64,000 nt of DNA from Acetobacterium sp. KB-1. GTDB lineage: Bacteria; Bacillota; Clostridia; Eubacteriales; Eubacteriaceae. How positions within the stretch are numbered: position 1 is the first letter of the stretch; each line of letters begins with the position of its first letter. The notes below the pieces were generated by a model. The model made no database searches and had not been told where the DNA came from. It saw only the letters and a program-made list of their open reading frames with translations. The position numbers and the translations under genes are program-made. The DNA lies in NCBI RefSeq assembly GCF_003260995.1, contig NZ_CP030040.1, forward strand, positions 1,205,773 through 1,269,772, in the 5' to 3' direction. Shown one piece after another: positions 6,313-29,206 of this stretch.

Positions 6313-6406
6313 TGCTTCACCTGTTTAGTTTAATCTGTTATTTTTATCAGTATAGCATGATTTTTTTAAAAACAATATTAAAATAAAAACGTTGTTTTTT
6401 GTAAAG

Positions 6407-22413: not shown

Positions 22414-24093
22414 TTAAAATTCTGATAATATGACGGTTAACTGCTGGCAAACGGTGTCCAGTTCTTTAATTTTTTCACCAAGCGTCTGGCTGCTCGCTTC
22501 TTTGTCGGCAACGACCCGATTCATCAACTCGCTGAGATCCTGTTTCAATGCGTCCGATTCCCGCTCCAGTACCGCCTTAAACTCCCTGACACTCTCGCGG
22601 ATCTTGTACTGATAATTATAGATCATGTTATTGATGTTGTGCTCCACGTCCGTCTGCATCTTATTCTGATAGCGGGCATAGATCTTTTTATTGGCGTAAC
22701 CCCGGGGCAACAGGTAAACCAGATCATTCATATCCAGCAGAAAGGCCGCCGGTTTCTGATTGACCTTCACATAGAAATCATCCCGGGACGACAGCGTATG
22801 CGCCATGGTATCAACCTGATAGCTAATGCCGAAGAGTTCCGCCACCACCTTTACCAGAAACGCCTTCAAGTCATCGATCTTCTGATTGAGAATCTCTGCC
22901 AGATGTTCATACCCTGACGAAAGACTCGCCAGTCCCCGCTCGCTGAGTTCATTGAGATGGGCTGTTAGCTGGTTTTCCAGCAAGGCCATCAACATTTTTT
23001 CCAATTCTTTCGGTTTCGCATTCCGATTCTTTTCATAGACCGCTGCCATTTCCGCAGACAGTACATCCCGAATTCCGGCTGAACCATCCTGTAACTCCGC
23101 CCGGATCTGCTCCAGTAGTTCATCAATATGGCGCAACAAATAAAAGGTGGAATCTCGGGTGATCTGATCCAGACTGCTCAGTTTTTCTTCCAGTTCGCTT
23201 CGTTTTTCCTCCAGGTTTTTTAGGGGCATGCCATAAGCCCGGCGGTATAGCTCCAGGTGGGAAAGGGCCACTCTCAGTACCTCCCGAAACTTGATCTGCA
23301 CCGAATCCATAATAATCCGATCGGCCGAAACCTTAATGTCTTCAGCTATTTTAATAAAAAGCGCATCGATTCCCACTTTGGTTTTGGCACTGATGGCAAA
23401 AAGTTCGATCGCCTCCACGGCCATAATCTCACAAAGAATATCATGACAATAACCCAGATAGGCTTCCAGATCTGATGGACTGATGGTGTCGGTCTTATTA
23501 ATGGCAAAGTAAAACTTGGCGGCGTAGTTTCTGGCTTCTATCAAAAACTCCCGTTCAATTTCGTTAATCGGACTATCCACTGACAGCATAAAAATGATCG
23601 CATCGCTGTCCCTCATAAAGGCATAGGCTTCATCGGTATTATTCTGATGAATCGACCCCACCCCGGGTGTATCCACCAGGGTGATGCCCGCTCTTAGAAA
23701 ATCATCCGGCAAAAAAAGATTGACAAAAGAAACACCTTTCTGGTTGTTGGGGTTTTGCTGTTCAGCAATATACCCCACTAGCTGATCCAGAGCCACTATT
23801 TGGTGGTCTCCGGTTTTAAAATGAACCTCGGCCAACGCTTCACCATACTGAATTTTAGTAGCCACCGAGGTCACCGGAATAATCCCCACCGGCAGCACCG
23901 CCGCTTCCAGCACGGCATTGATAAACGAGGTCTTCCCTCGCTTGAACTGGCCGATGACCGAAATCACCAGCTCCCGGTTTTTTATTTTTGTTTTAAGCAT
24001 TTCAATTTTCCGGATGTCTTCTTCGCATACACCTATTCCCTGAAGCAAAGTTGCCGCATCATCAATTGTTGTCGTTATATTTTTTTTACTCAT
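22414..24093 (-). CDS. Dynamin-family GTPase
   Basis: A 559-residue bacterial dynamin-like protein. The GTPase domain has G1 GQFKRGKTS (48-56), G3 DTPGVGS (141-147) and G4 NKTD (199-202), with a threonine-containing G2 loop (IIPVTSVATK). About 330 residues follow, largely helical with heptad-like segments and one hydrophobic stretch (KAFLVKVVAELFGISYQVD) that could touch membrane. Bacterial dynamins remodel or repair membranes. ATG 24093 follows AGAGAGG. Its 5' leader carries a fluoride riboswitch (24149-24231), so expression is predicted to rise with fluoride; I infer a role in fluoride or acid-type membrane stress. Confidence 0.85.
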   Translation of the reverse strand: MSKKNITTTIDDAATLLQGIGVCEEDIRKIEMLKTKIKNRELVISVIGQFKRGKTSFINAVLEAAVLPVGIIPVTSVATKIQYGEALAEVHFKTGDHQIVALDQLVGYIAEQQNPNNQKGVSFVNLFLPDDFLRAGITLVDTPGVGSIHQNNTDEAYAFMRDSDAIIFMLSVDSPINEIEREFLIEARNYAAKFYFAINKTDTISPSDLEAYLGYCHDILCEIMAVEAIELFAISAKTKVGIDALFIKIAEDIKVSADRIIMDSVQIKFREVLRVALSHLELYRRAYGMPLKNLEEKRSELEEKLSSLDQITRDSTFYLLRHIDELLEQIRAELQDGSAGIRDVLSAEMAAVYEKNRNAKPKELEKMLMALLENQLTAHLNELSERGLASLSSGYEHLAEILNQKIDDLKAFLVKVVAELFGISYQVDTMAHTLSSRDDFYVKVNQKPAAFLLDMNDLVYLLPRGYANKKIYARYQNKMQTDVEHNINNMIYNYQYKIRESVREFKAVLERESDALKQDLSELMNRVVADKEASSQTLGEKIKELDTVCQQLTVILSEF

Positions 24094-24148
24094 TCATAAT
24101 TCCTCTCTTCAACAGATCTTTTGACCAAAGATGATACTTGTTCAAATT

Positions 24149-24231
24149 AAAAAAGCCGATGCTTCTGTCTAATTAACAGAAGTCATCAGCGTGTCAGCAT
24201 TTTGGCCAGTGCCAGGGCGAACTTCATCACC
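24149..24231 (-). ncRNA. Fluoride riboswitch (crcB motif) upstream of dynamin gene
   Basis: Read on the minus strand, GGTGATGAAGTTCGCC opens the aptamer and CTGATGACTTCTG closes it, the conserved halves of the crcB motif. The closing half is also the 5' arm of a hairpin of about 13 bp (pairing with ACAGAAGCATCGGC) followed by T6. Ligand binding should therefore block terminator formation, giving an ON switch. Confidence 0.85.
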
Positions 24232-24239
24232 TAATTGAT

Positions 24240-24268
24240 AGTTTAATCGATTCGCATCAAAATATCAA
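24240..24268 (-). promoter_or_regulatory. Promoter for fluoride riboswitch/dynamin transcript
   Basis: Minus-strand TTGATA, 17-bp spacer, TAAACT, ending 9 nt before the riboswitch. Confidence 0.65.
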
Positions 24269-24327
24269 CGTGAAATGCGACCGCAACTCAGGAAACCTTA
24301 ATTAGAAGTGTCTTAACCGGAATATGC

Positions 24328-24356
24328 TTGACAAATGAATGCCATTTGTCTATACT
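24328..24356 (+). promoter_or_regulatory. Promoter for MutS-like operon
   Basis: TTGACA, 17-bp spacer, TATACT, placed just before the riboswitch at 24363. Confidence 0.8.
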
Positions 24357-24362
24357 CATCAC

Positions 24363-24447
24363 AGGGAATGAAGTTTCCCCTAGCAAATGCTTAAACGCCA
24401 AAAGCTGATAACTTCTGCACGATGTGCGGGATTTGTCAGCTTTTTTT
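24363..24447 (+). ncRNA. Fluoride riboswitch (crcB motif variant) upstream of MutS-like pair
   Basis: GGGAATGAAGTTTCCC forms the first aptamer half and GCTGATAACTTCTGC the second. AAAAGCTGATAA pairs with TTGTCAGCTTTT (12 bp, one G-U) to make a terminator with T7, so aptamer and terminator are mutually exclusive. It differs from the other three copies at some stem positions but keeps the ATGAAG/ACTTC pairing. Confidence 0.8.
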
Positions 24448-24464
24448 GTTATTTAGGAGGCCTT

Positions 24465-26015
24465 ATGGAATTTAAGAGTATTTTATATCAAACCGGTTAT
24501 GAAGAAAAACCTGTTATTGAGGAACCCAGCTATTTCAAGAATCTAAATCTGGACCAGCTCATTAAAGCGATTACCCTGGATAAAGATGACTATGATTTAA
24601 AGTCTTTTTTTTATTCACCCTTAAAACAAATGGAAAACATCCATTTTCGTCAAGCGGTTGTCACTGATTTAGAAAAAGATGATTTCTTTAGGTCAAGCTC
24701 AGCTTTTTCCGAGAAAATTTTCACCCTTAATCAGCAATTCGATCAATGCCTGACCAGTCTCAACCGTTCTGGGGACAAGCATCAGGATTATCTGGAAAAG
24801 GGTCGCTATTTGGACATCATTGAAACCTACTGTGAAGAAGTCAAACGTTATTATGAATGTCTCACGCATAGCGGTTTAAAAGCCTTGGGCTTTTTATCTC
24901 TGGGCGATTTTCTTGGTGACTATATCCATTCCAATGCTTTTGTGAATCTCAGCAAAACAACCAGCCGTCTCAAAGATGAACTGTTTGCACTGGATTATTG
25001 CATCCTGATCAAAGGCGATACCGTCAAGGTGAAAAAGTATGAAGGCGAACCCGATCACAGCAGCGAGGTCATTCAGCTGCTGGAACGTTTTAACCCTAAA
25101 CGTCAATCTACCAAACAGGAAGACAAACTCCATGAAGGATTGGCAACCCATGTGGAAAATAACATCTTAAACCTGGCGGCCAAACTATATCCCCAATCCT
25201 TTGGACAACTGGATGACTATTGCCTGAACCATCACAGCTTTATGAATCCCACGATCCTCATTTTTTCCCGGGAGCTTCAATTCTATATTGCCTATTTTGA
25301 TTACATCAAAGCCATTAAAAAAATGGGTTTATCCTTTAGTCTGCCAGAAATCACCAATTCTAAGACCGACCTCTATAATGATGACGGTTTTGATTTGGCC
25401 TTGGCCGATAAACTGATAAAAACACCAGAGAATATGGTCTGCAATAGCTTTTATCTCAAAAACAATGAACGGATTATTCTTATCTCCGGGCCGAATCAAG
25501 GCGGTAAAACAACCTTTTCTCGTCACTTTGGTCAAATTCATCATCTCGGTTGTCTGGGCCTGCCCATTCAGGGCAGTCGGTCAAGAATTTTCCATTTCGA
25601 TCAGATTTTCACCCATTTCGAACAGGAAGAAAACATCAATTCCCTCCAGGGTAAACTCAGTGATGACCTGATTCGGATGAAAGCGATTTTTGACGCCGCC
25701 ACTCCCAACAGCCTGGTGATCATCAATGAAATCCTGTCCTCAACCACCCTTAATGATGCTATATTAATTGGTACAAATTTCATCACCATGCTGGCCGATC
25801 TGGATCTGATTTGTGTATTTGTTACCTTTATTACCGAACTGGCTTCCTGTCATGAAAAAATTGTCAGTATGGTCAGCATGGTTTCTGAAGTTGACGCCTC
25901 AGAGCGAACCTATACGCTAATCCGCAAAGAACCCGACGGCCTGGCCTATGCCAATCACATTGTCCAGCGCTATCATCTGGACTATTTTTCAATCAATGAA
26001 AGGATTTCTTCATGA
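24465..26015 (+). CDS. MutS-like ATPase, first of a pair
   Basis: A 516-residue protein with a MutS-type core (helical lever/clamp region about 20-320) and ATPase domain V. Walker A is GPNQGGKTT (342-350) and the Walker B region is LVIINEILSSTTLNDA, with Asn-Glu in place of Asp-Glu. The usual Thr-His after Walker B reads TFITELA, so His is missing. The mismatch-recognition domain I (Phe-x-Glu) is absent. AGGAGG precedes ATG 24465; the frame is open further upstream, but only through the riboswitch. It overlaps the next gene by 4 nt (ATGA), suggesting a heteromer. Riboswitch control by fluoride is predicted. Its role in fluoride response is unknown. Confidence 0.82.
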   Translation: MEFKSILYQTGYEEKPVIEEPSYFKNLNLDQLIKAITLDKDDYDLKSFFYSPLKQMENIHFRQAVVTDLEKDDFFRSSSAFSEKIFTLNQQFDQCLTSLNRSGDKHQDYLEKGRYLDIIETYCEEVKRYYECLTHSGLKALGFLSLGDFLGDYIHSNAFVNLSKTTSRLKDELFALDYCILIKGDTVKVKKYEGEPDHSSEVIQLLERFNPKRQSTKQEDKLHEGLATHVENNILNLAAKLYPQSFGQLDDYCLNHHSFMNPTILIFSRELQFYIAYFDYIKAIKKMGLSFSLPEITNSKTDLYNDDGFDLALADKLIKTPENMVCNSFYLKNNERIILISGPNQGGKTTFSRHFGQIHHLGCLGLPIQGSRSRIFHFDQIFTHFEQEENINSLQGKLSDDLIRMKAIFDAATPNSLVIINEILSSTTLNDAILIGTNFITMLADLDLICVFVTFITELASCHEKIVSMVSMVSEVDASERTYTLIRKEPDGLAYANHIVQRYHLDYFSINERISS

Positions 26016-27496
26016 ACGTCTATTTAATGTATAAAGACCGCTGCTTTGATATAAATGAAGCCATTACTCAAGATCAGAAAATCTTGACGCGGGATCTCGG
26101 CATAGAAGGCATCCTCGATGTGATGGCCAATCAGGATCCCTTTATTTATGATGTTTGTAATCAGGCTCTCTTTTTGAGTCTTGATGATCCCGATACGATT
26201 TTCTATCGACAGGCTATTTTAAAAGACTGTATTAAAAACCCAAAAATTGTTAGAACCATGTACGAGTTGGTGACCGAGATACTGGTTAAAAAGAAAGAAT
26301 GGTTCTGGAGTTTTTCCAGTTCCTATCGCTCATCAAATTTAAGCGGTTCGGTAAACCTGCTGAAGTTTTTCGTGAAATATTTTATCTGTTTTAAAGAGAT
26401 TGCCGATAACGAAAATTCCAAATTTAACTCTGATGGTTTTAAAAATTTTTTTGCCATGCTCCGCAAAAACCTTGATGATGCTTTTATTAAAGACCTTGAT
26501 GCAAATTTAAAAGAACTGCAATTTAAGGATGGCGTTCTGATTAGTGCCCAGGTTGGCAAAAAACTGTATGGATACGGCTACGTGCTACGCAAAAAAAATA
26601 AGAATAGTCCCTTGAAGTGGCGTTTTGCCCCCGCCTTTACCCTCCATAGCCGGGATGACCGGGGAGCTATTGATCTGGGTTACCGTAAGGTACGAGCCTG
26701 TGAGCCGATTATTGATCCCATGGTTCAATCCGCCCAGCATATTTTAGATTTCTGGACTATTATTAAAACCGAATTGGCCTTTTATGTGGGTGCGCTCAAT
26801 TTACATGATCAGATGCTTGATACTCCCTATCCAATAACCTTACCATATCCCATGAAGTCAGCAACAAAGGATCTCTGCTGTGAAGGTTTGTACGATCTAG
26901 GACTGGCTCTGCTTAAAACTCAACAAGCCATCGTACCCAATACCCTTGATGCCAACAGAAAAGATCTGCTTATTGTAACTGGTGCCAATCAGGGTGGTAA
27001 AACAACTTTTCTTCGTAGCCTCGGTCAGGCTCAGTTAATGATGCAATGCGGCTTGTTTGTCCCTAGCAAAACCTTTACTGCCAGTCTCTGCACCGGGATC
27101 TTCTCGCATTTCACCAAGGACGAGGATGCCACTATGACCTCGGGAAAACTGGATGAAGAATTAAACCGCATGAGCGCAATTATCGACAAAATCGCGCCCC
27201 AAGCGCTGGTTTTATTCAATGAATCCTTTGCTTCCACCAATGAGCGAGAGGGTTCAGAAATTGCGCGGCAGATTGTCAAAGCCCTGATCTCAAAAGATAT
27301 CCGGGTAGTCTTTGTGACCCATTTTTTTGCCTTTGCCAACAACTTTTATCAGGAAAGTAATCCCCATTACCTGTTTTTAAGAGCTGAACGCAATGAGGAT
27401 GGCCGCCGAACCTTTCAAATTCTGCCGGGTGAGCCCCTTCCCACCAGTTTCGGCAATGATCTATTTGCCCATGTCTTTGACCGTAACGGTTCTTGA
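26012..27496 (+). CDS. MutS-like ATPase, second of a pair
   Basis: A 494-residue paralogue of the preceding protein, made by translational coupling. Walker A is GANQGGKTT, Walker B is LVLFNESFASTNEREG (Asn-Glu), and the Thr-His switch motif is intact (VTHFFAFA). The N-terminal region has the helical core and the phrase FYRQAILKDC that parallels FRQAVVTDL in the first protein. No mismatch-binding domain or MutS2 Smr domain is present. The two proteins differ in the switch His, which suggests an asymmetric ATPase pair. Both may act on nucleic acid or another polymer. It is followed by a promoter and a further fluoride riboswitch. Confidence 0.82.
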   Translation: MNVYLMYKDRCFDINEAITQDQKILTRDLGIEGILDVMANQDPFIYDVCNQALFLSLDDPDTIFYRQAILKDCIKNPKIVRTMYELVTEILVKKKEWFWSFSSSYRSSNLSGSVNLLKFFVKYFICFKEIADNENSKFNSDGFKNFFAMLRKNLDDAFIKDLDANLKELQFKDGVLISAQVGKKLYGYGYVLRKKNKNSPLKWRFAPAFTLHSRDDRGAIDLGYRKVRACEPIIDPMVQSAQHILDFWTIIKTELAFYVGALNLHDQMLDTPYPITLPYPMKSATKDLCCEGLYDLGLALLKTQQAIVPNTLDANRKDLLIVTGANQGGKTTFLRSLGQAQLMMQCGLFVPSKTFTASLCTGIFSHFTKDEDATMTSGKLDEELNRMSAIIDKIAPQALVLFNESFASTNEREGSEIARQIVKALISKDIRVVFVTHFFAFANNFYQESNPHYLFLRAERNEDGRRTFQILPGEPLPTSFGNDLFAHVFDRNGS

Positions 27497-27552
27497 GAAA
27501 AGTTAGCCTTTTATTATTAATATTCTGATTACGATTGCAGACAATCATTTCG

Positions 27553-27581
27553 TTGACACATATTTTACACCGTGTTAAGAT
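27553..27581 (+). promoter_or_regulatory. Promoter for orphan fluoride riboswitch
   Basis: TTGACA, 17-bp spacer, TAAGAT, 16 nt before the aptamer. Confidence 0.7.
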
Positions 27582-27597
27582 AAATTCAAATAAATTA

Positions 27598-27673
27598 GGT
27601 GATGGAGTTCACCACAATTGCTTAGTAGCTAATGACTCCTGCTGTATTGCTTTGCATTTCAGCAGGTTTTTTT
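27598..27673 (+). ncRNA. Fluoride riboswitch (crcB motif), no clear downstream gene
   Basis: GGTGATGGAGTTCACC and TAATGACTCCTGC are exact crcB-type halves, almost identical to the copy at 28235. CCTGCTG/CAGCAGG with T7 makes the terminator. The next 190 bp hold no credible gene. Confidence 0.9.
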
Positions 27674-27863
27674 ATTGCTCAATTTTTCTTATTTGATTTA
27701 GATCGCAGTCTAGTAATCGCTTTTTTGGCAAACCTAATTTGGCCGCTATTTCCCAGCCGCTGCTGATCGAAAAGTTTTTTTCCTGACAATCTTAATCCGC
27801 TTTAACTTATTTATGGGACTCGCTGGTGTTATTTTCACTATCAGTTCATATATATATCCCTTT
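27674..27863 (+). other. Riboswitch-controlled segment with degenerate or tiny ORF
   Basis: This segment lies between a fluoride riboswitch and a terminator. One plus frame reads through a hydrophobic stretch (KVFFLTILIRFNLFMGLAGV, then IFTISSYIYPF) without a start codon backed by a ribosome site. It may be the remains of a membrane protein gene or an untranslated RNA. The minus-strand frame at 27746-27973 is its shadow. Confidence 0.45.
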
Positions 27864-27906
27864 ATTTCAGTGCAATTTTTGTGACGTTGCACTGAAATCT
27901 TTTTTT
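27864..27906 (+). terminator. Intrinsic terminator after orphan segment
   Basis: A perfect 12-bp stem ATTTCAGTGCAA/TTGCACTGAAAT (27864-27875, 27887-27898) is followed by CTTTTTTT. Confidence 0.88.
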
Positions 27907-27908
27907 CT

Positions 27909-28193
27909 TTAAGCATCTCACCCATTACAAAACGACTTTCAAAGATACTGCTTAATGACTTGAGCGAACTCATTGATCTTCTTGAGGCTTTAGAAAAAAT
28001 TCATAAAAAAATGCGTTCCTATTTTATCTTCAGAATTTTGTTCACAACCCTCTCAATCATCATTTATCAGAAATATTCGGACATTTGTTTAACAGAAATT
28101 ATCATGATAGTTACCGTATCCTAATAAAACATTTATTATTTTTGCTTATTTCAAACTTTTTAATTTTGATTTCGATTACAGTGCAGCGTTTGA
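27909..28193. other. Intergenic stretch without recognisable gene
   Basis: About 285 bp, very AT-rich; no frame with a ribosome site and no hairpin seen. Confidence 0.5.
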
Positions 28194-28222
28194 TTGACAC
28201 GATTATTGCGTCATGATAACAT
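28194..28222 (+). promoter_or_regulatory. Promoter for crcB operon
   Basis: TTGACA, 17-bp spacer, TAACAT with an extended -10 TG. Confidence 0.78.
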
Positions 28223-28234
28223 TATTTCATACAA

Positions 28235-28306
28235 GGTGATGGAGTTCACCTGAATTGCTAACCAGCTGATGACTCCTGCAGGATTTTTCAATGCTGCAGG
28301 TTTTTT
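28235..28306 (+). ncRNA. Fluoride riboswitch (crcB motif) upstream of crcB pair
   Basis: GGTGATGGAGTTCACC and GCTGATGACTCCTGC are the conserved crcB halves. CCTGCAG/CTGCAGG plus T6 forms the terminator that overlaps the 3' half. Position before two fluoride channel genes makes this the classical arrangement. Confidence 0.95.
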
Positions 28307-28384
28307 ATTGTCTGAAATACCCAAACCACATATTAAATCCCTTCGTGTCAAACTATTTTTATCACTTAAGTCAGGAGGACTGTT

Positions 28385-28822
28385 ATGAAAAAATATTATT
28401 TTATCGGAGCTGGCGGTGCGATCGGAGCCCTATTACGGTTCGAACTCAAAAACGCTCCCACCCTTTTTCAATCTGCCGATCAACTTATTAATCTGGCCTT
28501 AACCATTCTTGTCATCAACTTGATTGGTTGCCTGTTCCTGGGGATGCTCAATGCCGTTTTCTCTAAAACTGAGCGGATCAGTACTGATATCAAGCTAGGG
28601 CTCACTGCTGGACTGCTGGGTGCCTTTACCACTTTTTCAACCTTCTGCAAAGAAAGCCTTAGTATTCTGGATGCCGGTTATCTGCGTTTTTTTTGTTACT
28701 ATGTAGCGGCCTCCATTACCCTTGGTGTGGGCGCTGTTTACCTTGGCCATCTGATCGGTCATCATATTTTGCATCCGGTTGGCAAAAATCTCATCTCCCG
28801 ATTTAGCATTGATTACAATTAA
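28385..28822 (+). CDS. crcB: Fluoride channel CrcB/FluC, subunit 1
   Basis: A 145-residue four-helix membrane protein of the CrcB/Fluc family, which exports fluoride passively as a dual-topology or paired dimer. Family motifs are GAGGAIGALLRFEL, the Asn-containing helix INLIGCLFLG, and GLLGAFTTFSTFCKE with the Phe-box and Na+-site region TFSTF. AGGAGG lies before ATG 28385. It is under the fluoride riboswitch at 28235 and is followed 12 nt later by a second crcB, the usual layout for a hetero-dimeric channel with opposed subunit orientation. Confidence 0.95.
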   Translation: MKKYYFIGAGGAIGALLRFELKNAPTLFQSADQLINLALTILVINLIGCLFLGMLNAVFSKTERISTDIKLGLTAGLLGAFTTFSTFCKESLSILDAGYLRFFCYYVAASITLGVGAVYLGHLIGHHILHPVGKNLISRFSIDYN

Positions 28823-28834
28823 GGAAAACAGCTC

Positions 28835-29206
28835 ATGGAAATTGTATGCGTTATTGTGGGTGGTGCTTTAGGAAGCACCACCCGTTACTATCTGGGCAAA
28901 CGTTTTGCCTCCCGGCACAAGCACCTACCGGTCGGTACCTTCGTCATCAACGTCTCTGGCGCCTTTCTCTTAGGTATCGTCACTGGTTTTGATATTTCAA
29001 CCCTGCTTTATGGTTTATTTGCAGAAGGATTTTTGGGGGCCTACACGACCTTTTCCACCTTTATGTTTGAAGACTTCGTGCTGCTTCAAAATAACCGGAT
29101 CCTCAGTGCCGTAATCTATGTGCTGGCAACGCTTGTTTTGAGCTTTCTAGCTTTCTATCTGGGTTTTATTCTGGTTTCGACATTCTATCCTAGTGTAACG
29201 TATTAA
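28835..29206 (+). CDS. crcB: Fluoride channel CrcB/FluC, subunit 2
   Basis: A 123-residue CrcB/Fluc protein: GGALGSTTRYYLGKR, TFVINVSGAFLLG and FLGAYTTFSTFMFED. It is shorter than subunit 1 and has fewer charged loop residues, as expected for the opposite-topology partner. AAGGAAAA precedes ATG 28835. The operon ends at the hairpin at 29212. Confidence 0.95.
   Translation: MEIVCVIVGGALGSTTRYYLGKRFASRHKHLPVGTFVINVSGAFLLGIVTGFDISTLLYGLFAEGFLGAYTTFSTFMFEDFVLLQNNRILSAVIYVLATLVLSFLAFYLGFILVSTFYPSVTY

Follow-up and report, generated by a model that had tools for sequence, protein, structure and literature searches.

A 64,000-nucleotide (nt) stretch of the Acetobacterium sp. KB-1 genome (assembly GCF_003260995.1, contig NZ_CP030040.1, positions 1,205,773–1,269,772 of the forward strand), hereafter the window, carries at positions 22414–29206 an island in which four fluoride riboswitch aptamers of the crcB motif accompany five genes: a dynamin-like GTPase (Dyn), a tandem pair of MutS-like ATPases (MutA and MutB) and a pair of fluoride channel subunits (CrcB1 and CrcB2). 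We explain the whole, with a probability of roughly 0.7, as a multi-transcript fluoride regulon that would combine export with Dyn and MutA-MutB, that was partly assembled by gene transfer, and that retains one relic switch. A fluoride-response island including a dynamin and MutS-like genes had been proposed in an earlier reading of this DNA (the original prediction), and the linkage extends far beyond the genus, Dyn and MutA-MutB being found repeatedly beside fluoride switches across many other bacteria.

The Rfam covariance model RF01734 (Fluoride, cut-off 34 bits), run on both strands of the whole window, returned exactly the four crcB-motif aptamers that had been predicted, all above the cut-off (35.4–52.5 bits; Table 1); no other RNA family exceeded its own cut-off in the window, and a search of the complete 3.99-Mb genome gave these four RF01734 matches only. 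As first drawn, the aptamers started 8–9 nt inside the model matches and extended through the terminators. An alignment of 34 aptamers shows an extra hairpin in those preceding Dyn and MutA that is absent from the crcB type. On folding, an overlapping terminator was recovered for each aptamer as had been claimed, all four hairpins reusing the 3' part of their aptamer, and since a terminator overlaps each aptamer the layout is the standard fluoride-'on' arrangement. When each hairpin was compared with 200 shuffles, 0 (Dyn), 0 (MutA), 3 (orphan) and 6 (crcB) of these folded as well; a consensus terminator scan listed none of the four overlapping hairpins, probably owing to its loop and mismatch limits. 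The promoter claimed for each aptamer fared less evenly: a candidate site lies just upstream of all four, but the scan as a whole barely exceeded chance (20 sites found against a shuffle mean of 14.7, standard deviation 3.6). At the level of sequence, regulation of the island genes by fluoride switches is well supported; the proposed control by all four switches remains likely for Dyn, MutA-MutB and the crcB pair, whereas the switch at 27589 seems to be what is left of a lost crcB operon.

Table 1. Features of the fluoride island in window coordinates (aa, amino acids).
Feature	Positions	Strand	Evidence
Dyn, dynamin-like GTPase, 559 aa, P-loop + DTPG + NKxD	22414-24093	-	Dynamin_N
Dyn aptamer with extra hairpin	24170-24240	-	RF01734 35.4 bits
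Terminator overlapping Dyn aptamer	24149-24190	-	-21.2 kcal/mol, z -7.7
Promoter-like site before Dyn switch	24240-24268	-	9/12 consensus matches
Promoter-like site before MutA switch (TTGACA, 17 nt, TATACT)	24328-24356	+	11/12 consensus matches
MutA-MutB aptamer with extra hairpin	24355-24424	+	RF01734 41.4 bits
Terminator overlapping MutA aptamer	24403-24447	+	-21.7 kcal/mol, z -6.0
MutA, MutS-like ATPase, 516 aa	24465-26015	+	MutS_V 61.7 bits
MutB, MutS-like ATPase, 494 aa	26012-27496	+	MutS_V 73.7 bits
Promoter-like site before orphan switch	27553-27581	+	10/12 consensus matches
Orphan aptamer	27589-27648	+	RF01734 50.7 bits
Orphan-switch terminator	27638-27673	+	-15.9 kcal/mol, z -2.7
Probable relic of crcB operon 3' flank (terminator hairpin 27864-27898)	27819-27907	+	identity to relatives' crcB flanks
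Promoter-like site before crcB switch	28194-28222	+	10/12 consensus matches
crcB-pair aptamer	28226-28285	+	RF01734 52.5 bits
Terminator overlapping crcB aptamer	28275-28306	+	-14.7 kcal/mol, z -2.6
CrcB1, fluoride channel subunit, 145 aa	28385-28822	+	PF02537 76.7 bits
CrcB2, fluoride channel subunit, 123 aa	28835-29206	+	PF02537 93.7 bits

Dyn matches Dynamin_N with 103.2 bits (Pfam cut-off 27), and its motif residues fall in invariant columns of seven aligned dynamins, the window's included. The top Protein Data Bank matches of its AlphaFold model (predicted local distance difference test, pLDDT, 84.8) are BDLP and IniA, with which it shares the GTPase and a long helical bundle; it differs from them in sequence (14–16% identity over the structure matches) and is set apart by its linkage to a fluoride switch. 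The loop at residues 422–463, between long helices, might be a membrane tip. Among 19 genomes of the genus Dyn occurs in nine (E 1e-20), and in all nine (eight besides the window's) a same-strand aptamer above the cut-off lies 56–98 nt upstream, the same position before the dynamin across the genus. Dyn is usually divergent from crcB in these genomes, but in G002 and G017 the two lie far apart or on different contigs. A class draw of 341 genomes, three of the window genus being counted among its Dyn hits, contained seven full-length orthologues above 500 bits (three of the genus), six of which have a same-strand aptamer upstream; the aptamer of G061 is below the cut-off (26.8 bits), that of G172 lies 1.3 kb upstream, and none was found upstream of the full-length orthologue of G304. 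In G122 the gene order is switch, Dyn, enolase. Outside the class, 16 of 80 loci gathered through MutB (see below) contain 20 dynamin frames, one of them clipped by a contig end and fragments in L103 and L135 not being counted. Nine of the 20 have a match to our aptamer model R1 within 150 nt, two have one about 1 kb upstream, four stand right behind MutB and five do neither. RF01734 exceeds its cut-off at the same place in seven of those nine, the other two being L107 (30.1 bits) and L166 (none).

It is very unlikely that Dyn serves in phage defence or general stress and stands beside crcB by chance. The LeoA model of PADLOC does match it (9e-13), but the NCBIfam LeoA score is 18.6 against 325, the aptamer stays directly upstream throughout the nine genus genomes even where crcB is elsewhere, aptamer-linked dynamins occur in other phyla too, and in the 11 class-draw genomes with weaker dynamin hits only, none of these lies near an aptamer on its contig. 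In G005 (L038:8619-9228) only pieces of the dynamin remain, behind a switch that scores below threshold (32.5 bits). DUF6062 stands alone 3' of fluoride switches at L107:3745-4422 and L083:6759-7190, and its C-terminal half matches the C-terminal helical part of the dynamins at L098:9663-11426 and L164:10299-12017 (40.8 and 41.5 bits against a cut-off of 27; weaker in L124, 28.9 bits), a likeness that may stem from common descent, from a fused domain or from nothing more than similar helices.

Relatives of MutB were collected by a scan of 84,980 species genomes (E 1e-3), from which the best 80 of 540 were used (43–48% identical); true MutB status need not hold for all of the 540. The 80 come from Chloroflexota, Bacillota, Pseudomonadota, Actinomycetota, Thermodesulfobacteriota, Spirochaetota and others. 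A MutA match is present in 77 of the 80 loci, with MutA directly upstream, and the two genes overlap by 4 nt in 67 of 74 scored pairs, as they do in the window; L084, in which MutA and MutB are interrupted, and L086, which holds part of MutB only, are described unrepaired. At least 200 nt precede MutA in 69 of the 80 loci, and in these R1 matches within 400 nt before MutA in 32, within 2.5 kb in 43 and anywhere in the locus in 51, the chance expectation for the 400-nt case being about 2% per locus. Genome-wide RF01734 hits were assigned to loci by hand from contig ranges. The fluoride aptamer is present in 71 of 79 distinct genomes reached through MutB, against a background of 75 of 341 in the class draw, a comparison weakened by the fact that these are different groups and that the background search had stricter filters. 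Within the class draw itself, the aptamer occurs in 5/5 genomes with MutB above 400 bits (the window's included) versus 70/336 (p = 0.0005), and in those five it lies at the MutB locus itself. One of the rearranged cases is G122, where MutA is missing, MutB is cut and the aptamer stands between MutB and Dyn; in G023, which belongs to a neighbouring genus, MutA-MutB-Dyn follow a switch as one run. Distant MutS_V proteins gave no aptamer hits at their five loci.

The pair also occurs on plasmids, with MutB in 48 plasmid records at E 1e-40. Plasmids of Citrobacter, Rhodococcus and Alicyclobacillus hold MutA-MutB in stretches with aptamers: on the Citrobacter plasmid usp-eno-gpm-crcB and antiporter-usp-MutA-MutB lie 3' of separate aptamers, and on the Rhodococcus plasmid the sole aptamer is at crcB, with none at MutA-MutB. 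The MutB tree mixes phyla (30 changes against a minimum of 14), a hint of transfer only, as 33 of its 81 inner branches are open and the rows of the window and G023 are long. MutA-MutB frequently has established fluoride genes as neighbours: by tblastn, crcB was found in 14 of the 80 MutB loci, and a scan of 20 other proteins near switches or in MutB loci included enolases, Na/H exchangers, a CLC channel, NADHdh, DUF6062 and IlvD, four of the 20 having no Pfam match at E 1e-5. Next to the shortened MutB of G122 (L086:5253-7368) lies a gene encoding an integrase core (rve) domain, and the pair may therefore have been disrupted by a mobile element. In G081 two switches upstream of MutA-MutB (L085:11547-13695, minus strand) enclose a gene without a Pfam match and a GGGtGRT-family gene.

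The MutS_V matches of both window proteins exceed the Pfam cut-off of 30.2. Walker A reads GPNQGGKTT in MutA and GANQGGKTT in MutB, and Walker B includes NE in each; N421, E422, T454 and F455 are invariant in 29 aligned MutA, and in 58 aligned MutB E404 and H437 are invariant and N403 almost so. At the equivalent position the two thus differ, MutB having His437, which may be the MutS active-site histidine, and MutA Phe455. This asymmetry, together with the 4-nt gene overlap, suggests a heteromer with unequal sites. At E 0.001, MutS_V was the only Pfam family in all 58 MutB and the only MutS family in all 29 MutA. The MutB AlphaFold model (pLDDT 86.8) covers the core of E. coli MutS, starting at about residue 260 of the latter, and fits the MutS2 core, without the MutS2 tail, equally well.

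Several known identities were considered for the pair and rejected. The N-terminal mismatch-binding families of mismatch-repair MutS were not detected in the 58 MutB and 29 MutA (E 0.001), nor was Smr; NCBIfam scores for MutA and MutB were 61.1 and 59.6 bits for mutS1 (cut-off 641.7), 59.6 and 76.3 for MutS2 (400), and 38.2 and 80.5 for KamC, the reactivase ATPase of lysine 5,6-aminomutase (NF052383, 300). KamC is the top-scoring NCBIfam model for the window MutB, but the match is confined to the ATPase part and in other members mutS models score equally or better. As defence genes the two were likewise set aside, the PADLOC matches covering short ATPase stretches only. Judged by the domain families detected, MutA-MutB is not a mismatch-repair MutS: it differs from MutS, MSH and MutS2 in being a tandem pair with a Phe/His difference and no mismatch-domain or Smr family.

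What the pair acts on may be approached through two further readings. A DNA-repair clamp for fluoride-related DNA damage would come near a suggestion made in the crcB-motif paper, that the stress concerned is able to damage DNA (Weinberg et al., 2010; PMC2864571). It is possible though doubtful: MutB is modelled with a MutS-core fold that has lever and ATPase domains, and its residues 100–260 carry a net charge of +8, but the corresponding region of MutA is at -5, E. coli MutS aligns from about residue 260 only, MutS_V is the sole MutS-type family in the 58 MutB and 29 MutA, and no MutL-named product was found in three annotated plasmid stretches. A MutS2-like action of the pair on ribosomes that have stalled or collided, a reading in which fluoride-metal complexes may lock translational GTPases, seems unlikely to us: neither Smr nor KOW families were found in the same 58 MutB and 29 MutA, the mutS2 score stays at 76.3 against 400, and structures of MutS and MSH match equally well.

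The crcB pair and the orphan switch bear on the history of the island. Both CrcB proteins exceed the Pfam CRCB cut-off (32.9), and with NCBIfam crcB (TIGR00494, cut-off 80.45) CrcB2 scores above (95.0) and CrcB1 below (72.9). Between MutB and the crcB aptamer (27497–28225) there is no plus-strand frame of at least 60 aa; the one wholly internal minus-strand frame, of 75 aa, has no Pfam match and a chance-level NCBIfam match, and was rejected as a coding gene. Over 156 nt the leader of the orphan switch shares 72% identity with that of crcB. A stretch starting 171 nt after the orphan aptamer, with about 90 nt shared, is 75% identical to the sequence just after crcB2 in G004 and 80% identical to a crcB scar in G014, and includes a hairpin of -15.3 kcal/mol (z -5.1). 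Its exact 17-nt core was found, among 178 loci, only in those of the window genome, G004 and G014, and a dispersed repeat was rejected, the relic terminator being single copy in the genome. Because the leader resembles the crcB leader and the 3' stretch matches these crcB flanks, we read the switch at 27589 as the probable remnant of a second crcB operon, since lost. In G014 (L043:8261-8497) a crcB switch and the last crcB2 codons are kept, and the crcB pair was not seen there. The orphan switch might instead be no relic at all and govern a small RNA or a short gene missing from the frame list, which we regard as rather unlikely. Its aptamer and terminator are intact, a promoter-like site precedes it, and the shortness of the shared stretch weakens the case for a relic; on the other hand, no frame with a family match follows it, the closing hairpin was otherwise found in two relatives only, 3' of crcB in one and of a crcB scar in the other, and a like loss, with the 3' end of crcB2 remaining, is seen in G014.

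In G003, G004, G015, G016 and G018, Dyn and crcB stand back to back with two switches and nothing recognised between them, and MutB was found in one of the 19 genus genomes, so that MutA-MutB was probably acquired and inserted into an older dynamin-crcB locus. In five relatives (L034, L038, L042, L044 and L045) NiCo or molybdenum/tungsten riboswitches lie about 0.1–3.6 kb from crcB, and genes for metals and ions may therefore tend to gather at the crcB locus.

The density of the island, taken in the original prediction as a pointer to its function, is not exceptional, and four switches in 4.2 kb are not unique: in G410 four aptamers above the cut-off fall within 2.4 kb (C32:197241-199684), and around MutA-MutB in L107 (Formimonas warabiya) there are seven hits, four above the cut-off, over about 10 kb. 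In Lucifera butyrica (L098:3134-3399, minus strand) three tandem fluoride aptamers (3134, 3245 and 3338) precede an NADHdh-family gene, with three RF01734 hits at the matching place, one just below the cut-off; tandem pairs occur in L084 (12818, 12908) and L113 (1807, 1919), and in Pelotomaculum (L112:10229-12046) a fluoride switch precedes an IlvD/EDD dehydratase.

With known regulons of the fluoride riboswitch (crcB motif, RF01734) the island shares the aptamer, the overlapping terminator and the crcB targets, and differs in that one of its four switches is seemingly without its genes. The target mutS has been known since 2010, being among the crcB-motif-associated genes listed by Weinberg et al. 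(2010; PMC2864571), which bears out a MutS link named in the original prediction. A dynamin linked to a fluoride riboswitch or crcB was not found in the literature, for which subscription journals were mostly outside the scope, so that a printed link is possible; the accessible text of a 2024 review (PMC11139923) contains none of 'DNA repair', 'GTPase', 'ATPase' or 'muts'. With the mutS link known, the main finding here is the recurrent linkage of Dyn and MutA-MutB to fluoride switches. A published fluoride island is, like the window's, riboswitch-controlled and multi-gene, and according to the available part of the paper its loss lowers tolerance; neither mutS nor GTP appears in the main text as available. 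Its eno, ppaC and uspA are not among the five genes of the window island, and it also resembles the Citrobacter plasmid with its two aptamer-preceded gene runs.

We propose that the aptamers act as 'on' switches: bound fluoride would keep the overlapping terminators from stopping polymerase, and transcription would continue into each operon. CrcB1 and CrcB2 would form the export channel, and Dyn would protect or reseal the membrane through GTP-driven assembly. Translational coupling would make MutA and MutB together, as an asymmetric MutS-core ATPase clamp with DNA, stalled ribosomes or a locked enzyme as candidate targets. Historically, the older dynamin-crcB unit of the genus would have gained MutA-MutB by transfer, and the 27589 switch would be what remains of a lost crcB operon. 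The membrane remodelling and 'MutS-type machine' of the original prediction thus persist as what fold and family would imply.

Several points weigh against this explanation. The Dyn switch of the window is the weakest of the four, at just 1.4 bits above the cut-off, and hydropathy revealed no clear membrane anchor in Dyn. In the MutB loci, five of the 20 dynamin frames have no model match nearby and 37 of the 69 MutA genes have none close by, as counted with R1, whose training set was a single bacterial family and which overlooks some RF01734 hits (L104 is a likely miss, with an RF01734 hit of 31.6 bits at 6332–6399, mapped by hand); the aptamer hit is absent from 8 of the 79 MutB genomes. Some of the genus genomes behind the rarity of MutB are just 81–87% complete, and MutA and MutB could act separately.

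The item 'mutS' of the 2010 list becomes, through this analysis, a defined two-gene ATPase distinct from mismatch-repair MutS, and a dynamin is added as a recurrent neighbour of fluoride switches. One broader idea, speculative and quite unlikely as it stands, is that fluoride resistance in many bacteria has a dedicated nucleoside triphosphate-driven repair pair: a dynamin, sometimes with DUF6062 or a DUF6062-like tail, that would mend membranes damaged by hydrogen fluoride, and a MutA-MutB clamp that would ignore mismatches and, reactivase-like, free complexes frozen by fluoride-metal-phosphate, such as enolase. More generally, Dyn and MutA-MutB point to fluoride damage beyond enzyme inhibition and export, and the plasmid cassettes suggest that MutA-MutB travels with fluoride resistance. 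These findings suggest that fluoride defence would include, besides export, two poorly understood machines.

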